Shown here one piece after another: positions 18,574 through 26,579 of a DNA stretch of 33,645 nt. Each line of letters begins with the position of its first letter. Position 1 is the first letter of the stretch. The translations under genes were made by a program, and so were the position numbers. This DNA is from Planctomycetaceae bacterium (GTDB taxonomy: Bacteria > Planctomycetota > Planctomycetia > Pirellulales > Pirellulaceae), in NCBI GenBank assembly GCA_024232675.1, contig JAAEPL010000516.1, positions 1 to 33,645 of the forward strand, in the 5' to 3' direction. The notes under the pieces were generated by a model. It was not told the origin of the DNA. It saw only the letters and a program-made list of their open reading frames with translations, and ran no database searches.

Positions 18574-18667
18574 ATACGACTCGCCGTCATTAGCCAAGGG
18601 ATTTGGCGATAAATAGCCGGTTGATCGCTTGTGCAATCGACCTCGGACAAGGAAAATAGGGAGATCT

Positions 18668-19885
18668 ATGATGTCAGGGCAAGAACGCAAGAACGTACTC
18701 AAAATGAAACGGCGTAGCAAGCAACAAACTTTCTGCGAAGAACGTGTCAATTCGTACCCGTTCTATTCACCGCGTTTTTGGGCCGGCATGCGTTTCACCG
18801 ATTACATGGGGTTGCTCTCCCGAAATCACTTCCGCGTCCACCCCACGCGCATCCCCATGATGTTCATGGTCGGTGGTTGCTCAGTGCTCTCAAGTGGCTT
18901 AGCGCTGACTCAACAGCTGCTCATGAAACGCCAGATCGAGGCGACCGAATTGAGCGAGCCTCCGATTTTCATCATCGGTCACTGGCGAAGCGGCACCACG
19001 TTGCTGCACGAAATGCTCTGCCTGGATCAACAGTTCTCTTGGCCCTCGACCTTTGAGTGCTTTGTTCCGACTTATCACAATCTGACCAAACCATTCCTGC
19101 AACCGTTACTCCGTTTGTTAATGCCTAGCAAACGACCTATGGATTCCATGCCTGCGGGACCAAACTTACCACAGGAAGATGAATTCGCATTGGTGGGTAT
19201 GGGCGCCCCGACCCCTTATTACCACATCGCTTTTTCTAATGAGCGCCCCGAATTCCAGCAGATGCTAAACCTGAATGATGCCAATGCGGGAGAAATCGAA
19301 GAGTTGCGTAACTCCCTTACATGGTTTTACAAATCGATCAGCTATAAAAACCCCAAGCGTTTGGTGTTAAAATCGCCGACCCACACCGGTCGCATCGCCC
19401 ATTTAGCCAAGTGGTTTCCAGGAGCTAGGTTCGTTCACATTACGCGGCATCCCCACAAGATCTTCCCCTCCAGCATCCACTTATGGAAATCACTTGCGGC
19501 AGTACAAGGGTATCAATGCTCCAAAAACGATGAGCAACGCCTGATCGATCAGGTCAATCAATGGTACCGCGAAATGTATGACGGCTACTTCGAGCAAGTC
19601 GAGCAGATTCCCAAAGAGAATTTGGTACAGTTGAAATTTGAAGATCTTGTGAAAGATCCTGTCAATCAAATTGAGTCCATCTATTCGGCCTTCGATCTGA
19701 AAGGCTTCGCTCAAGCGCGCGTGACCTTAGAGAATTACTGGTCGCAGCGAAAATCTCATCGCGCTAATAAAACGCAGTTGAATGAGGCTACCAAAGAACT
19801 CATCGATGATGTCTGGTCAGATTACATCACGAATTTTGGCTACGCCTCCACAGAAAAAGATGCGAGCTTCGTTCGAGCTGGGTAG
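18668..19885 (+). CDS. Sulfotransferase family protein
   Basis: PIFIIGHWRSGTTLLHEML (5'-PSB loop) and RFVHITRHPHKIFPSSIHLWKS (3'-PB). Confidence 0.88.
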   Translation: MMSGQERKNVLKMKRRSKQQTFCEERVNSYPFYSPRFWAGMRFTDYMGLLSRNHFRVHPTRIPMMFMVGGCSVLSSGLALTQQLLMKRQIEATELSEPPIFIIGHWRSGTTLLHEMLCLDQQFSWPSTFECFVPTYHNLTKPFLQPLLRLLMPSKRPMDSMPAGPNLPQEDEFALVGMGAPTPYYHIAFSNERPEFQQMLNLNDANAGEIEELRNSLTWFYKSISYKNPKRLVLKSPTHTGRIAHLAKWFPGARFVHITRHPHKIFPSSIHLWKSLAAVQGYQCSKNDEQRLIDQVNQWYREMYDGYFEQVEQIPKENLVQLKFEDLVKDPVNQIESIYSAFDLKGFAQARVTLENYWSQRKSHRANKTQLNEATKELIDDVWSDYITNFGYASTEKDASFVRAG

Positions 19886-19926: not shown

Positions 19927-20673
19927 TCACCCCAATTGCCGCGCCCGACGCCTAGCATGGATTTCCGGAGATGGCTCGCTGGCCTGCTGCTCATCCCTAG
20001 CTTCCTGCTCAGTCATCTGCAGAGACCGGCGATGCAACCACCAGCGGACTCCATAATCGGCGGCTCCAACCGCCAATGCAGCGACACACAGTCGCAGTGC
20101 CGTGCCCACCAGCCAATCCATCAGGAGAGGGCTTTTTTCCTGCAAACGCCCCTTCCCCAGCATCATCAGCGCATCGAGGTCACCCAAGACCACCCAGGCG
20201 GCGACGATGGACAAGACAGCCAATTTGCTGATCGCTAAAAGAACCGACACCACTTGCTCGGCGGAAAAGATCTGCCTTAAGTTACGGACCGGATTCAAAC
20301 GATCGATATCAGGAGCCAACAAACCAGGATAGGCGCGAAATCCACTTTGGGCAGTCCAAGTCAAAATAGTAATCCCAGCAATGCCCGCGAGGATCGGAAA
20401 TAAGCTGCTCCAAAATACACCTGCCACCCCCACCCAATTGCTATTCAGCATTTGTTCGGCCGACATGGAGATATCAAATTCGCCCCAGCGGCTTTGACTG
20501 AACCGATCCATTGCACGCCATAGCCAATGTCCAAATGTGGCGACCAGTGCGATGCCTCCTAACCAGACCACAGCGACCGCTAGATCTCGGCTTCGCGCCA
20601 TCTGCCCCGATTGCTGCGCACGCTGCAATCGATTTACCGAAGGGTCTAGATTTGCTTCATCTCGGTCAGACAT
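19927..20673 (-). CDS. flhB: FlhB-like export protein lacking the C-terminal NPTH domain
   Basis: NRLQRAQQSGQMARSRDLAVAVVWLG, DIDRLNPVRNLRQIFS, RWWLHRRSLQMTEQEARDEQQASEPSPEIHARRR, then a stop. Confidence 0.88.
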   Translation of the reverse strand: MSDRDEANLDPSVNRLQRAQQSGQMARSRDLAVAVVWLGGIALVATFGHWLWRAMDRFSQSRWGEFDISMSAEQMLNSNWVGVAGVFWSSLFPILAGIAGITILTWTAQSGFRAYPGLLAPDIDRLNPVRNLRQIFSAEQVVSVLLAISKLAVLSIVAAWVVLGDLDALMMLGKGRLQEKSPLLMDWLVGTALRLCVAALAVGAADYGVRWWLHRRSLQMTEQEARDEQQASEPSPEIHARRRARQLG

Positions 20674-20676
20674 CAA

Positions 20677-21462
20677 TTAACCCGTTTCCCGGAACTCCAA
20701 CCAGTTTTTCAACTCGCCCAGCGTTAACTCAAACCCACCATTAATGATCCACGGAGTCGACAACAGCACCAGCGACGTAACCGCCATACCGAAGACGGCT
20801 TTAATTCCCAGGCCAACCTGCATGCCACCCAGTTGGGGGAAATTTCGTTGGACCATTCCCAAAACGAGGGAGGCTGCCAATAGCGCGGCGATCGCGGGTA
20901 GCGCTGCCGAAACGCCAAATTCAAAAGCGTAGCCAATGGATGTCACCAAAAAATCCACGAATGACTGATCAAATACCGAAGTCCCCGTGGGTAACGCAGT
21001 AAAAGAAAACAACAAACCGTCAATCAACTGCCCAACGCCTCCTGCGGCGACAAAAACAGCCACGGTGGTCCACCAGAACAACTTACCCAAGGGTCCACCA
21101 CCTGTTTCCGAATCCGCAGGGGCCCCAAAAGATGCGAGGGAAAATCCACAAAGCCCTTCAATCACACTACCGGTGATCTGGATACCAGAAAGCATGATGG
21201 AACAGGACAAACCCATCAACGCGCCCACTAACACTTCGTTAACCAAGGTAAGCAATAACGCCGTCCATTCCAGGCTAGGCGTTTCTGCCGTCGCTACCGC
21301 GCCGGGGACGACTGCCAACGACAAGGCCAAAATGAATGCCACTTTGACTCGCATGGGCACCACACGCGTGGCGACCAAAGGCATTGTCATCACCATCGCT
21401 GTAATTCGCACCACAGCCGGGATGGCGGTCAGCAAGATGGCAGTAAGAACAGCATCGCTCAT
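20677..21462 (-). CDS. fliR: Flagellar-type export protein FliR
   Basis: Multi-TM; RITAMVMTMPLVATRVVPMRVKVAFILALSLAVVP; NEVLVGALMGLSCSIMLSGIQITGSVIEGLCGFSLAS; correct gene order. Confidence 0.9.
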   Translation of the reverse strand: MSDAVLTAILLTAIPAVVRITAMVMTMPLVATRVVPMRVKVAFILALSLAVVPGAVATAETPSLEWTALLLTLVNEVLVGALMGLSCSIMLSGIQITGSVIEGLCGFSLASFGAPADSETGGGPLGKLFWWTTVAVFVAAGGVGQLIDGLLFSFTALPTGTSVFDQSFVDFLVTSIGYAFEFGVSAALPAIAALLAASLVLGMVQRNFPQLGGMQVGLGIKAVFGMAVTSLVLLSTPWIINGGFELTLGELKNWLEFRETG

Positions 21463-21506: not shown

Positions 21507-21791
21507 TCAATGATTCGCTTTATCAAACACGGTGCTGGGGATTTGTTGGATCAGATCACGACTGAACCCTGAGTAATGCTCAACAAACCAAGGAGCGCAA
21601 ATACTTATAATCACCACTGCCGCGACGAGTTTGGTTACAAACATCACGGTTTGGTCTTGAATTTGTGTAACGGCCTGCAAAACCCCCACGACGATGCCCA
21701 CGATTACGCCAACGACCAACACAGGAGCCGCCAACAGCAGCACCAGGAAGACCGATTGGCGGGCGATTTCAATTGCAATCTGGGGATCCAT
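21507..21791 (-). CDS. fliQ: Flagellar-type export protein FliQ
   Basis: 94 aa, two TM; VLVVGVIVGIVVGVLQAVTQIQDQTVMFVTKLVAA. Confidence 0.93.
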   Translation of the reverse strand: MDPQIAIEIARQSVFLVLLLAAPVLVVGVIVGIVVGVLQAVTQIQDQTVMFVTKLVAAVVIISICAPWFVEHYSGFSRDLIQQIPSTVFDKANH

Positions 21792-21809: not shown

Positions 21810-22691
21810 TCACAAGTAAGGGCTAAAGCTCTGCATCAACATGCCAACAACCAGGTTCCATCCATCTACCAATACAAACATGATGAGCTTCAAAGGCAAA
21901 CTGACCATGGTCGGCGGTAACATAATCATGCCCAGCGAAGTCGTCACACTAGTTACCACCAAATCGATCACGAGAAAGGGCATGATGACCTGAAACCCGA
22001 TCAGAAAAGCGATTTTCAATTCGCTAATCATGAATGCCGGTAATAACACATGCAGCGGAATATCTTCAAATGTCTCGGGGCGTTGTTCGCGTTCAGCAGC
22101 AGGTAGATGTTTGTAAAACAACCAAATATCATCGACGTTTCCGGCCGCGTCGATTTGCCGGCTCATAAAACGCTTAACAGGCTTGGTGCCTTTTTCCCAC
22201 GCTTCTTCCAGCGATAACTCGCTCTCTTCCGACGTGTAGGGATCCACGGCTTCCTTTTTTATTTCCTGCCAAACCGGAGCCATGATCAGAAAGCTCATGA
22301 ACAACGCCAAAGCCGTCATGATTTGCGTTGAGGGGATTTGCTGCGCCCCCAACGCCTGACGTAGTATTCCCAACACCACGACAATGCGCACGAACGATGT
22401 GGTCATCATGGCGATGGCAGGAACCAAACTGATGACCGCCAGCAATAATACGGTTTTCACCGTACCGGATAACTTGCCTGGTGTAACAAACTCTTCCAGA
22501 TCCAGCGATTCCGAGATGGACGAATCCTGAATCGTCGTTTCCACCGTCTCATGGTCCGAACTCTGCGCGGAAGCGGGGATCGCTGTTAGACAAATGCCAA
22601 GTCCACACAAACCGGCCAAAGCCCATACCGTAACCGGGTGGATACGGCGTACTTTTTTTGATTTCGATGATAAGGAGTGCGAGAGTTTCAA
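21810..22691 (-). CDS. fliP: Flagellar-type export protein FliP
   Basis: LAVISLVPAIAMMTTSFVRIVVVLGILRQALGAQQIPSTQIMTALALFMSF; LLPAFMISELKIAFLIGFQVIMPFLVIDLVV. Start uncertain; a TTG at 22691 just after the fliO stop gives a signal peptide (track start 22778). Confidence 0.93.
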   Translation of the reverse strand: MKLSHSLSSKSKKVRRIHPVTVWALAGLCGLGICLTAIPASAQSSDHETVETTIQDSSISESLDLEEFVTPGKLSGTVKTVLLLAVISLVPAIAMMTTSFVRIVVVLGILRQALGAQQIPSTQIMTALALFMSFLIMAPVWQEIKKEAVDPYTSEESELSLEEAWEKGTKPVKRFMSRQIDAAGNVDDIWLFYKHLPAAEREQRPETFEDIPLHVLLPAFMISELKIAFLIGFQVIMPFLVIDLVVTSVTTSLGMIMLPPTMVSLPLKLIMFVLVDGWNLVVGMLMQSFSPYL

Positions 22692-22695
22692 AGTA

Positions 22696-23352
22696 TTAAG
22701 CTTCCAATAGGGTTCGGCCGCTGCGTTGGTGGCTACCCAGTGAGACATTGGAAGCTGGGTTCGTTCCCTGAAGTGCACGTTGCTGCATAGAAGCGGTCAA
22801 CAAATCCATGCGACCTTGCTGAATAGCTGACTCCAATTGCAACACTTCCTGGGGGTCAGATATTTCACTCAGTGTTTGAGACCCTGATGGAGAGGCCGCG
22901 ACTAATAATAGTCTCGTGCCCAACCGTACTATTTGCAGTTGCTGCCCGTGCACGAAGGGAATTTGGCCCAGTACCGTAAGCACTTGGTTGTCTTGTTTTC
23001 GACCTACAGGCTTCCGGGAGGATGGTCGCAAACGCCACAGAAAGACGCCCAGCAAAAAAAGGCTTAAGACTAGCGTTAACGTAGCTCCCGTTTTTATCGC
23101 GGATTGTCGCGTATTGGGGTCTCGAAAAAGTTGTAAACCGCTCGTCGAAGTGGATTCAACCGAGGGAGGACTAATTTGCTTTTGCAACCAGTCAACGCTG
23201 CGTTCGGCCGCGCTCCGCAAACCCTCCGTCTCTTGAGGTGCTGCGGAGATGAGTGTTTCACCTTCGGTGTTCTGTGCACACACGTTCTCGGCACACCCCA
23301 ACGCAATCAGAGTGCCCAGCATCAAGAAGCAAAATTTCATCATCATTTTCAT
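22696..23352 (-). CDS. fliO: FliO-like protein
   Basis: Signal peptide, single TM TLTLVLSLFLLGVFLWRLRP, then LTVLGQIPFVHGQQLQIVRLGTRLLLVAASPSG; sits between fliG and fliP. Start MKMMMKF at 23352 preferred. Confidence 0.75.
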   Translation of the reverse strand: MKMMMKFCFLMLGTLIALGCAENVCAQNTEGETLISAAPQETEGLRSAAERSVDWLQKQISPPSVESTSTSGLQLFRDPNTRQSAIKTGATLTLVLSLFLLGVFLWRLRPSSRKPVGRKQDNQVLTVLGQIPFVHGQQLQIVRLGTRLLLVAASPSGSQTLSEISDPQEVLQLESAIQQGRMDLLTASMQQRALQGTNPASNVSLGSHQRSGRTLLEA

Positions 23353-23369
23353 AAATGGTTTCTGTCGGT

Positions 23370-23933
23370 TTAGCTGGGAATCAGCCCTTGCTCCATCAAA
23401 TTTTTTGCCAAGTCGCAATACATTCGATGGATCTTTTGCATTTCTGAAAAATCCACGCTCTGGGTTTCACTAATTTGCTGACGCACCCGCTCCGCATCCT
23501 CGCTCGATAATCGATTAAGGACTCGTTCAATGAACGATTGAGGACTGCAGGTCAAGACTTGAATCGTCAGATCGGGTGCAGCCGCTTGTAAAAGCTGATC
23601 CAGTGACTCGTTATCCCACTGCACAACTTGCTCAAAACTTGGTGTAACACCCACGTGAATATGCGATCGCAATTCGGGACGTAAAATATTTGGTGTGGCC
23701 GCTGTCATCGTTTGCGGATCAAAGTAAAGGAAATCAGCAAAGTCATTTAATGAACCCTCATCGGAATGACATCCCATGGCTTTCAATTCATTAATTTGCG
23801 TTTCCGCATTAAGCCGTGTCTCTTGATCAAACCCCTGAAGTAACAGCATCACCGTTTCACGTCGGAAATTTACGAGTAAACGCGCCAACTGATTGGTTTG
23901 CCGAGTTGCTAGTTTTACTTTGGCTTCTGACAT
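23370..23933 (-). CDS. fliG: Short FliG-like protein
   Basis: SFEQVVQWDNESLDQLLQAAAPDLTIQVLTCSPQSFIERVLNRLSSEDAERVRQQI...AKNLMEQGLI matches the FliG_C pattern; TAATG junction with fliF. Confidence 0.7.
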   Translation of the reverse strand: MSEAKVKLATRQTNQLARLLVNFRRETVMLLLQGFDQETRLNAETQINELKAMGCHSDEGSLNDFADFLYFDPQTMTAATPNILRPELRSHIHVGVTPSFEQVVQWDNESLDQLLQAAAPDLTIQVLTCSPQSFIERVLNRLSSEDAERVRQQISETQSVDFSEMQKIHRMYCDLAKNLMEQGLIPS

Positions 23934-25639
23934 TACCCTGCCTTTTTATCCAACCATTGACGAATTGTGGCTGCTGCCGCATGTGGGTTATCCCGACACC
24001 ATTGATCCAATTGATCACGCATTAAATGCTGGGTTGTCACATCTAGTGGCGATTCAACTTGGGAACTGGTTACGAATTCCCCCCTGCTCTTTACTGAGAA
24101 ATGCGGCGTTGGCATTTCGGCCCGACGAGAGGCCGACGATGTGGCCTCCGTAACGCTTGGAGGTTGGTAGGTTCGCTCTGCTGTTTCAGAACTGAGATTA
24201 ACGGTCTCTGGATTGGGCGTGGATACTGCGCCTTGACGCCCTTTACCAAAAGGTCGAATAAATATAATCAAGCACAAACTGCCGCCGATGAGAGTCAACC
24301 AAACCCACTGCCCTGCCCACTCCTCTGCGGGCTTATCCCCTGCGGTAATCGACTCGGGAAAGTGAATTTCACGATCGACCGTGACCACAAAGTGTTGACT
24401 GGCTGGTAACTCACCCGCTGGAACCAGCGGTTTAACTTTTTGCTGGATATCTTCTTTTAATTGTTGAAAGATCGTTTGCCGTTGTTCGGTGGCAGTGAGG
24501 CCTTCCGCGTTGGCATTTTCGATATTCTGATTCACAAAATACTTCACGCAGCGTTCGGGAATTCCAATCGACACATTCACGTACTTGACCATCGGTCCCG
24601 CTGACTCGGTCGTTTCAAAGGTGCCATTTGCTGCGGACTCGGTCGTCTCCGATACCACCTTGGGTGATTCCAACTTCTCCACATTCCCCTGCACATTGGT
24701 TGCCAAACTGAAAAAGCCCCTTAATCGCGAAGGGGTTGTGGACGGCATGTTGGATTCAAATTCACGATGGGTCATTTTCTGAATGACCATCGGTTTACTA
24801 TGTATTTTTCGTTCATCACGGATCCGTCTGACGACGGGGTCAATCATCACTTCCACATTGACTCGAATCCCAGGATAGGCCGCTAGCGCACTACGAATCT
24901 TCAACTCGTATTTGCGTTCCGCCTGCATTTGCGCCATTTCGTGCGGTTGAAATTTCTCCGCATCACTGGCAATCACACCTGTATAAGATTTGCTCGAAAA
25001 CGTGTCGATAATCGTAATGTCATCCGGTTGCAGACCTGCCACGGCTCCGCACACCGTGTCCCGAATCGCTTTCACCTCGGACAGATTCAGATTTCGATTT
25101 TCTGCTGGACCGACATTCACAATGGCCGTTCTCTGCATGTCTTCGAAGGGCGAACTGCCGCTCGCCTCGTCGTATTCCACCATGGCTCGATCGACAAAAC
25201 GCAATTGTAAAACCATGTCTCGAATGGTTCTTTTTTTGCGATTTAATTGCACCGCCCTTAGTTGCTGGCGAGTTTGAAAGATCCCTGCCGCGGAAGTGAC
25301 TTCGGCTTGACTCTGCAAATCTCGCGGCACCGCGCCGTGATCAGCTAAAGCCTTTAGATAGGCGCCGCGAAATTGTCGTGGCACGCATACCTGCGTCCCC
25401 CGAATTTCATATTCGTTTAGCCCTGATTTCCCGAACGCAACTTGCATTAAACCGACCTCATCAGGGGTCAGTACGCGCGACTCGAATAGTGATATTTCCG
25501 TCGGAGACGAGAACTTCTGATTGGCGATAACGGAAATTAAAGTCAGTGCCACCAAAGTCACAACTCCCCAACGGGCCGCTGTCGGACGTTCGCGAAACCA
25601 ACCTGCGAGAGAACTTCCCCATTCTTGCCAAGATTTCAT
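23933..25639 (-). CDS. fliF: FliF-like MS-ring protein
   Basis: N-terminal TM; AVQLNRKKRTIRDMVLQLRFVDRAMVEYDEASG, RTAIVNVGPAENRNLNLSEVKAIRDTVCGAVAGLQPDDITIID; C-terminal TM WVWLTLIGGSLCLIIFI and acidic/helical tail. Confidence 0.85.
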   Translation of the reverse strand: MKSWQEWGSSLAGWFRERPTAARWGVVTLVALTLISVIANQKFSSPTEISLFESRVLTPDEVGLMQVAFGKSGLNEYEIRGTQVCVPRQFRGAYLKALADHGAVPRDLQSQAEVTSAAGIFQTRQQLRAVQLNRKKRTIRDMVLQLRFVDRAMVEYDEASGSSPFEDMQRTAIVNVGPAENRNLNLSEVKAIRDTVCGAVAGLQPDDITIIDTFSSKSYTGVIASDAEKFQPHEMAQMQAERKYELKIRSALAAYPGIRVNVEVMIDPVVRRIRDERKIHSKPMVIQKMTHREFESNMPSTTPSRLRGFFSLATNVQGNVEKLESPKVVSETTESAANGTFETTESAGPMVKYVNVSIGIPERCVKYFVNQNIENANAEGLTATEQRQTIFQQLKEDIQQKVKPLVPAGELPASQHFVVTVDREIHFPESITAGDKPAEEWAGQWVWLTLIGGSLCLIIFIRPFGKGRQGAVSTPNPETVNLSSETAERTYQPPSVTEATSSASRRAEMPTPHFSVKSRGEFVTSSQVESPLDVTTQHLMRDQLDQWCRDNPHAAAATIRQWLDKKAG

Positions 25640-25702: not shown

Positions 25703-26290
25703 CTATGCAACGCGACGTTGGGACGAAGTGCGGCCTGACAAATCCAATTGGATGGCACAGCCTCCAACGGGGCATTTCAAGTCAACGGCACGATCAACCG
25801 AAATCAACTGACGTGTAAATTCCCAAGCCTCAGAAGCTAACAATTCTCCGGACTCTACCGACCGACTGTCACACCCGATTTCCAATTCGATACCGTGCGA
25901 CAGAGATCCCAAAGTTAATTCAATGGTGGAACCACGCTCAACTCGCGTGGCTAGTTCCATCAATAAACACCAGATGCCTAAATAGTCATTTTCGAAGAAA
26001 ACGCGGCCCTGCCCGTTTCCAAAACAACTTACGCTGAGCTTCACATCCAAACTTGAAAGTAAGCCCTCCAAGTCCGTCGCTAAGTCATGAACCAACTTTT
26101 CCACATTGCGCGATTGGTATCGGGAGCCCGATTGCAAGTCGCTGTGCAACAACTGAACGAGCATGAACTTCTGATCAATGCAAAGATTTACCGGAGCGAT
26201 GGGTTTGATGCCCGATAAACGATTTCGAAAAATCTCGGCAAGGCTCTGCCAGGCTCGGATGTCGGGTGTCGAAATTTTTGAGTAGTTCAT
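25703..26290 (-). CDS. Unknown protein upstream of fliF; faint histidine-kinase ATPase-like features
   Basis: ORF 64 nt upstream of fliF on the same strand; NVEKLVHDLATDLEGLLSSLDVKLSVSCFG...DYLGIWCLLMELATRVERGSTIELTLGSLSHGIELEIG loosely resembles HATPase_c without clear G boxes. Confidence 0.5.
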   Translation of the reverse strand: MNYSKISTPDIRAWQSLAEIFRNRLSGIKPIAPVNLCIDQKFMLVQLLHSDLQSGSRYQSRNVEKLVHDLATDLEGLLSSLDVKLSVSCFGNGQGRVFFENDYLGIWCLLMELATRVERGSTIELTLGSLSHGIELEIGCDSRSVESGELLASEAWEFTRQLISVDRAVDLKCPVGGCAIQLDLSGRTSSQRRVA

Positions 26291-26579
26291 GCGAATCCCT
26301 GCTTGAATCAACTGTGCGTTTCATCAACTCGTCTTCGCCATGCCGGTCATCCTGACCAACTTCTTTAGGCGAAGTCGCAGATATCTACAAGAATTTCACA
26401 AATACTGTCAATCCAGTATTTCGAGATTGCAAACGAAAGCGGTGCTATCGCTGCTCACAGGCAGGCTGCCAGCGTCTACTGTGGACGCCAAGAATCGTGC
26501 GAAGAGGAGACAGTCACGTCACTTTCCGCGCGGACTGCGGCGGCAGAGAAGCAGCCAACGTAATTAACGGAAATTTATG

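Follow-up and report, generated by a model that had tools for sequence, protein, structure and literature searches.

The FliG-like protein of 187 amino acids encoded in the window (the whole 33,645-nucleotide stretch of Planctomycetaceae DNA analysed here) is, as judged from its sequence, a shortened FliG1 composed of a FliG_N-like part and FliG_C. In the operon that carries it the rod, hook, stator and ATPase genes have probably been deleted in place, with fliF, FliG1 and the export-gate genes kept under selection, and FliG1 is likely to serve as a structural subunit, bound to FliF, of an export gate that has neither switch nor rod. The genes concerned, with one neighbour, are as follows.

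23370..23933 (stop included), minus strand: FliG-like protein of the FliG1 line, 187 aa, ATG start (Pfam, MAFFT, profile comparison, AlphaFold2)
23373..23648, minus strand: FliG_C domain within the FliG-like ORF (Pfam, aa 99-185; aa 98-187 on FliG structures), a stretch flagged by the initial annotation
23933..25639, minus strand: FliF-like MS-ring protein, 568 aa (YscJ_FliF domain matched)
25703..26311, minus strand: decayed histidine-kinase-type ATPase, 202 aa (position; profile comparison, probability 95%)
22696..23418, minus strand: FliO-like protein (family match; the listed start overlaps fliG and a later start is likely)
21810..22778, minus strand: FliP-like export-gate protein (family match; above the fliP equivalog cut-off)
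21507..21791, minus strand: FliQ-like export-gate protein (family and equivalog scans)
20677..21462, minus strand: FliR-like export-gate protein (family and equivalog scans)
19927..20676, minus strand: FlhB-like protein, 249 aa (family match; limited to the membrane domain and the first part of the linker)
18629..19885, plus strand: sulfotransferase-like neighbour (named by a look at the sequence)

The row, all on the minus strand, reads decayed kinase, fliF, fliG, fliO, fliP, fliQ, fliR and short flhB. Set against the intact operons of the order, the cluster lacks flgBC-fliE, fliHIJ, flgDE, motAB and fliN. The window FliP scores 241.7 bits with the FliP equivalog (cut-off 217.45) and 173.3 bits with yscR (cut-off 208.6), and it is also above the cut-off of the EscR/YscR/HrcR subfamily PRK12797 (195 vs 179). 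The FlhB of 249 aa ends ahead of the NPTH autocleavage site and contains none. FliP, FliQ, FliR and the membrane part of FlhB are encoded in the window. The second FlhA is cut by a contig end in the window genome (G000), so it is seen there in part, and is 810 aa long in G095. The window FliF has no YscJ_FliF_C match in the family scan and retains a C-terminal motif of the FliG-binding type, NPHAAAATIRQWL. The ORF at 25703..26311, for which Pfam gave no match and whose nucleotide motifs are gone by eye, is what remains of the kinase found ahead of flgB in intact operons of the order. The sulfotransferase-like gene lies next to flhB, on the other strand, in many loci, both complete and reduced ones (window 18629-19885; L038-L104).

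The FliG-like ORF comprises a FliG_N-like region (aa 1-70), a short linker and FliG_C (aa about 96-187). Pfam FliG_C matched aa 99-185 with 38.8 bits (cut-off 23.3), whereas the NCBIfam fliG equivalog TIGR00207 gave 23.9 bits, far under its cut-off of 226.7. Profile comparison starting from three proteins of the same genus recovered FliG_C with a probability of 98% and FliG_N as a weak match (score 29.6, E 3e-5, probability 72%); the highest score among 100 shuffled controls was 16.9, and Pfam FliG_N gave no match over the N-terminal part. The middle domain FliG_M was not found by profile comparison, which accounts for the shortness of the protein, and the FliM-binding EHPQ motif is absent in a MAFFT alignment with E. 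coli K-12 FliG. The AlphaFold2 model, made from alignment A4, is confident in the C-domain only: mean pLDDT is about 95 or higher for aa 101-180, whereas blocks of the N-part reach just 46-77. Alignments A2 and A3, in which FliG_N pieces or the N-part of the window protein were set onto other ARM repeats, were left unused. The top structure matches of the model are all FliG (8wo5: Z 14.2, rmsd 1.7 Å, 90 aa). Hence the homology to FliG, for which the initial annotation had called for an HMM-HMM comparison and a structure prediction, stands, as do the length of 187 aa and the missing EHPQ motif that it had reported. The weak FliG_N match and the poor model of the N-part count against the reading proposed above.

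At the positions of E. coli K264, R281, D288, D289 and R297 (reference, K-12 FliG from NC_000913.3) the MAFFT alignment places T, E, Q, Q and D, exactly the residues that the initial annotation had read off by eye. Sequence identity with E. coli FliG is low, which might suggest that the absence of the torque charges is a mere slip of alignment. This is scarcely credible, since the alignment runs gap-free across about 80 columns, the FliG1 rows are anchored by a conserved GP-x-RL motif and the fold match has the low rmsd given above.

All 17 sampled flagellated relatives have two FliGs, an operon copy beside fliF (FliG1; loci L073, L193-L209) and an unlinked copy (FliG2; loci L231-L247). In FliG2 the right charge at all five torque positions, together with EHPQ, was found in 17/17. 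In FliG1 the sign of the charge is kept at K264, R281, D288, D289 and R297 in 0, 5, 1, 1 and 12 of the 17, which were drawn from the 73 rod-positive genomes of our survey of the order (117 genomes, 44 of them rod-negative). A FliG_C match of at least 100 bits, which marks FliG2, occurs in 71 of the 117, comprising 68/73 rod-positive and 3/44 rod-negative genomes. The C-part of the window protein scores 80 with FliG1 vs 40 with FliG2 and the gene lies beside fliF, which together place it in the FliG1 line. FliG1 is predicted from its residues to be the non-torque paralogue of this two-FliG system. Outside the order, the operon FliG of a Phycisphaerae locus (L166) has the charges, as read by eye.

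MotA R90 and E98 are conserved in 17/17 rod-positive loci read, matching the charged FliG2 (MotA was read in L073, L074, L195, L210-L229 and others). Three rod-negative genomes with full-length FlhB (G177, G198 and G190) retain FliG2, with all torque charges in G190 but only some of them in G177 and G198, as if caught midway.

The comparison with orthologs also changes how the missing charges are to be understood. As the FliG1 line lacks K264 in flagellated relatives too, the absence is older than the window gene and not a recent loss within it, and the earlier wording that the protein "appears to have lost" these residues is misleading for this gene. For the same reason the torque residues alone are no marker of a flagellum-less system, and we rejected the idea that missing charges by themselves identify a non-motor FliG. 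The accompanying proposal of a structural adaptor for FliF instead of a motor rotor is partly supported: it fits a cluster without stator, rod or hook genes, the FliF motif that has been kept and the FliG1 ancestry, from which we infer the binding to FliF. The idea of an adaptor is probably correct, on grounds that the initial annotation could not have seen. A search for MotA and MotB found neither in the window cluster; MotA and two MotB-like proteins are present on contig C460 of the window genome.

A bona fide rotor that draws torque from other charges would be in keeping with the intact FliG_C fold and with the helix at the torque position, which carries three basic and five acidic residues. 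Which charges matter for FliG torque does vary between species. Nevertheless we regard a rotor as very improbable, given a cluster without stator, rod and hook, the existence of a fully charged FliG2-type rotor in flagellated relatives and the loss of both EHPQ and the middle domain.

The intact operons of the order read kinase, gap, flgB, flgC, fliE, fliF, fliG, (fliH), fliI and, further on, flgD, flgE, motA, motB, fliN, fliO, P, Q, R and flhB. Reduced loci read kinase, fliF, fliG, (fliH-fliI), fliN, fliO, P, Q, R and flhB, and some are also without fliI and fliN. That reduced loci run kinase-fliF-fliG where intact ones have flgB-flgC-fliE in between implies deletion in place. Of two kinases scanned, the one from an intact operon has both HisKA and HATPase domains and the one from a reduced operon HATPase only. 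In the reduced loci of G150, G185 and G222 fliF and fliG form a single ORF (L043 4864-6762, L089 10226-12154, L092 2846-4762), and in a named Pirellulaceae MAG (L115 8884-12508) only fliO-P-Q-R and a short flhB are present, upstream fliF or fliG not being found.

In known flagella a C-terminal motif of FliF binds FliG_N. Read by eye, FliF carries a motif of this type in 14/14 reduced loci where FliG is a separate ORF, and 9/9 readable FliFs of loci without FliG lack it. This count leaves out the two FliF-FliO fused ORFs (G238, G228), the FliF-FliG fusions (G150, G185, G222) and also G236 and G211, which are cut by contig ends. The co-occurrence of the motif with a separate fliG is our best evidence that FliG1 binds FliF. 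Family f8 has also lost fliG, and its fliF stops shortly past the membrane part; the search of 117 genomes gave no FliG_C match in this family, though the gate persists, which implies that FliG1 is dispensable there and counts against the proposed role of FliG1.

The order is taken from a scan with a FliP alignment, in which Pirellulales, Thermoguttaceae and Planctomycetaceae records ranked highest. Across it, rod and hook genes are present in 73 of 117 genomes and absent from 44. "Rod-negative" is meant genome-wide for these 44 and by locus for the window and for G002, G004, G005, G008, G009, G049 and G095. Flagellin was found in 71/73 rod-positive vs 0/44 rod-negative genomes and MotB in 69/73 vs 2/44, the two (G230, G245) being weak matches and one of them under the cut-off. 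FliI is kept in 23 of the 44 rod-negative genomes and lost in 21, and FlhA is kept in 42. Ten places, among them G107:C1:1624468-1625484, encode the FlhA cytoplasmic part alone (about 490-530 aa) besides a full FlhA, as does G153:C1:2744771. The family match of FlhA has a gap near model positions 403-458, within the cytoplasmic region, in G150, G155, G185, G202, G211, G213, G217, G222, G226, G233, G235, G236 and G241, all genomes with short FlhB except G235, which has no FlhB match.

FlhB occurs in two forms, one of full length and one stopping short of the NPTH site. Genomes with short FlhB only are rod-negative in 33/33 cases, as against 10/78 of those with full-length FlhB only (Fisher p 1e-19, uncorrected for kinship). 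NPTH is present in 23/23 complete FlhBs of rod-positive genomes and in 0/46 FlhBs of reduced loci, two of the 46 being cut by contig ends and 10 being of full length. As these full-length proteins already lack NPTH, its loss seems to precede that of the domain. Contig breaks were rejected as the cause of short FlhB, since 33 genomes share the region where it stops; G206 and G175, whose rows are truncated by a contig end, were kept apart.

Between the window and its relative G049 most proteins are 82-90% identical and dN/dS is 0.04-0.10 for all seven genes: 0.095 (fliF part), 0.071 (fliG), 0.086, 0.071, 0.049, 0.041 and 0.044 (flhB), rough figures because dS is near 1. Values in this range imply that the genes are maintained, and pseudogene decay is rejected by them. 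They also bear on the view that the cluster is a relic in the course of being lost and the FliG-like protein functionless. Such a relic would agree with the stepwise reduction across families, in which the ATPase is lost from 21/44 rod-negative genomes and FliG is absent in f8, and with the reduced histidine kinase of the window and its missing nucleotide motifs. We consider it unlikely in view of the low dN/dS, the retention of the gate as a set across long branches in f8 and the FlhA kept in nearly all rod-negative genomes.

Rod-negative and rod-positive loci are intermixed in the trees. A tree of three genes requires five changes, as does one of five genes, in which the starred branches force four. 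In AU tests a single rod-negative clade was not rejected (p 0.173; subset, p 0.272), and five genes under the simpler LG+G4 model, with three outgroup rows dropped, gave p 0.071. The mixed trees favour several losses of the rod genes, and a single loss is also compatible with the AU tests.

Contigs C460 and C396 of the window genome carry a flagellar set that is complete and of a different type, several of its genes being named by eye. C460 encodes FliF, an ordinary FliG of 332 aa, FliH, FliI, FliJ, FliR and full FlhB besides the stator proteins noted above, and C396 encodes FliP and FlhA. This flagellum, which the small set might serve, counts against our main reading, and both sets occur together in G000, G049, G095 and G008. 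That the reduced set belongs to this other flagellum, its gate or FliG1 working with the C460/C396 genes, is nonetheless quite unlikely: C460/C396 has its own FliF, FliG, FliI, FliP, FliR, FlhB and FlhA, and most reduced sets are in genomes without any flagellum.

Collectively these data make it likely that the window operon is a remnant of the native flagellar operon of Pirellulales (Planctomycetota), from which the rod, hook, stator and ATPase-complex genes were presumably removed in place, with fliF, FliG1, fliO, P, Q, R and a shortened flhB retained under purifying selection. The N-domain of FliG1 would clamp onto the C-terminus of FliF, and FliG1 may form a small cytoplasmic ring or collar that turns nothing and that would surround, inside the MS ring, a gate of FliPQR, the FlhB membrane part and FlhA. 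Passages of PMC7064499 describe how the FlhB membrane part and its loop wrap and gate FliPQR and how NPTH cleavage is needed for the cargo switch, and according to passages of PMC8983047 the cytoplasmic portion of FlhB is the docking site for early subunits of rod and hook. A gate with no rod, hook or filament would need neither the cleavage nor the docking part. With the FlhB switch domain gone, one cargo class would be exported, as expected from the loss of that domain, or only a gated pore may have been kept. Export could be driven by proton-motive force; ATPase-less export is reported for Salmonella in passages of PMC4230889.

More tentatively, and with rather more doubt than conviction, we suggest that Pirellulales flagella use two FliGs with split work, FliG2 turning and FliG1 holding the gate in the MS ring. 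Several lineages might then have shed the turning half, leaving a switchless, rod-less and finally ATPase-less and FliG-less exporter, a new kind of secretion apparatus. What half a flagellum still does is an old question, which the reduced Pirellulales loci let one ask. Within one order, systems kept under selection grade from the complete flagellum down to a gate on its own, and among the genes read the loss of FlhB NPTH tells the two states apart in every case. Furthermore, the split of FliG into torque and non-torque copies makes a non-motor role of FliG testable apart from rotation.

In the open-licence literature we found no paper on a rod-less flagellar apparatus or on paired FliGs in Planctomycetes, paired FliGs having had no separate query, and the main text of PMC12199754, as far as available, does not mention planctomycetes. 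Paired FliGs as such have a counterpart: Borrelia burgdorferi has two paralogues, FliG1 and FliG2, one a rotor subunit and the other placed elsewhere. The likeness lies in this pairing of one rotor with one FliG in another place; unlike in Borrelia, the non-torque FliG of Pirellulales lies beside fliF, is without torque charges and is the survivor of flagellum loss.

Chlamydia and Planctomycetes share a superphylum. Chlamydia FliI, FlhA and FliF, as described in parts of PMC2830194, are MS-ring and gate proteins without a flagellum; Chlamydia has an injectisome alongside, whereas in Pirellulales FliOPQR-FlhB is flagellar in type and the cluster showed no injectisome gene. In Lysobacter enzymogenes OH11, a non-flagellated bacterium with FT3SS-like genes, the gate still exports flagellin in a new role, according to passages of PMC7277350, and the likeness is an export gate retained without a flagellum. 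This is one species, in contrast to Pirellulales; FliG and FliF go unmentioned in the available main text, and the passages on OH11 hold nothing on NPTH loss from FlhB. Flagellar export genes also act outside the filament in the hat-like inner-membrane structure and the nanotube "CORE", as portions of PMC9380563 set out. The hat-like structure was observed in species that possess a flagellar T3SS, whereas the reduced Pirellulales are mostly without rod, hook, filament and stator genes. The non-flagellar T3SS of Myxococcales, treated in sections of PMC3459982, is likewise a reduced T3SS that has long been maintained; it is a separate injectisome branch, whereas the genes in Pirellulales are of flagellar kind and occupy the place of the order's native flagellar operon. 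Export gates of flagellar type that lack a flagellum are already known, and the Pirellulales system is a new variant of this theme.
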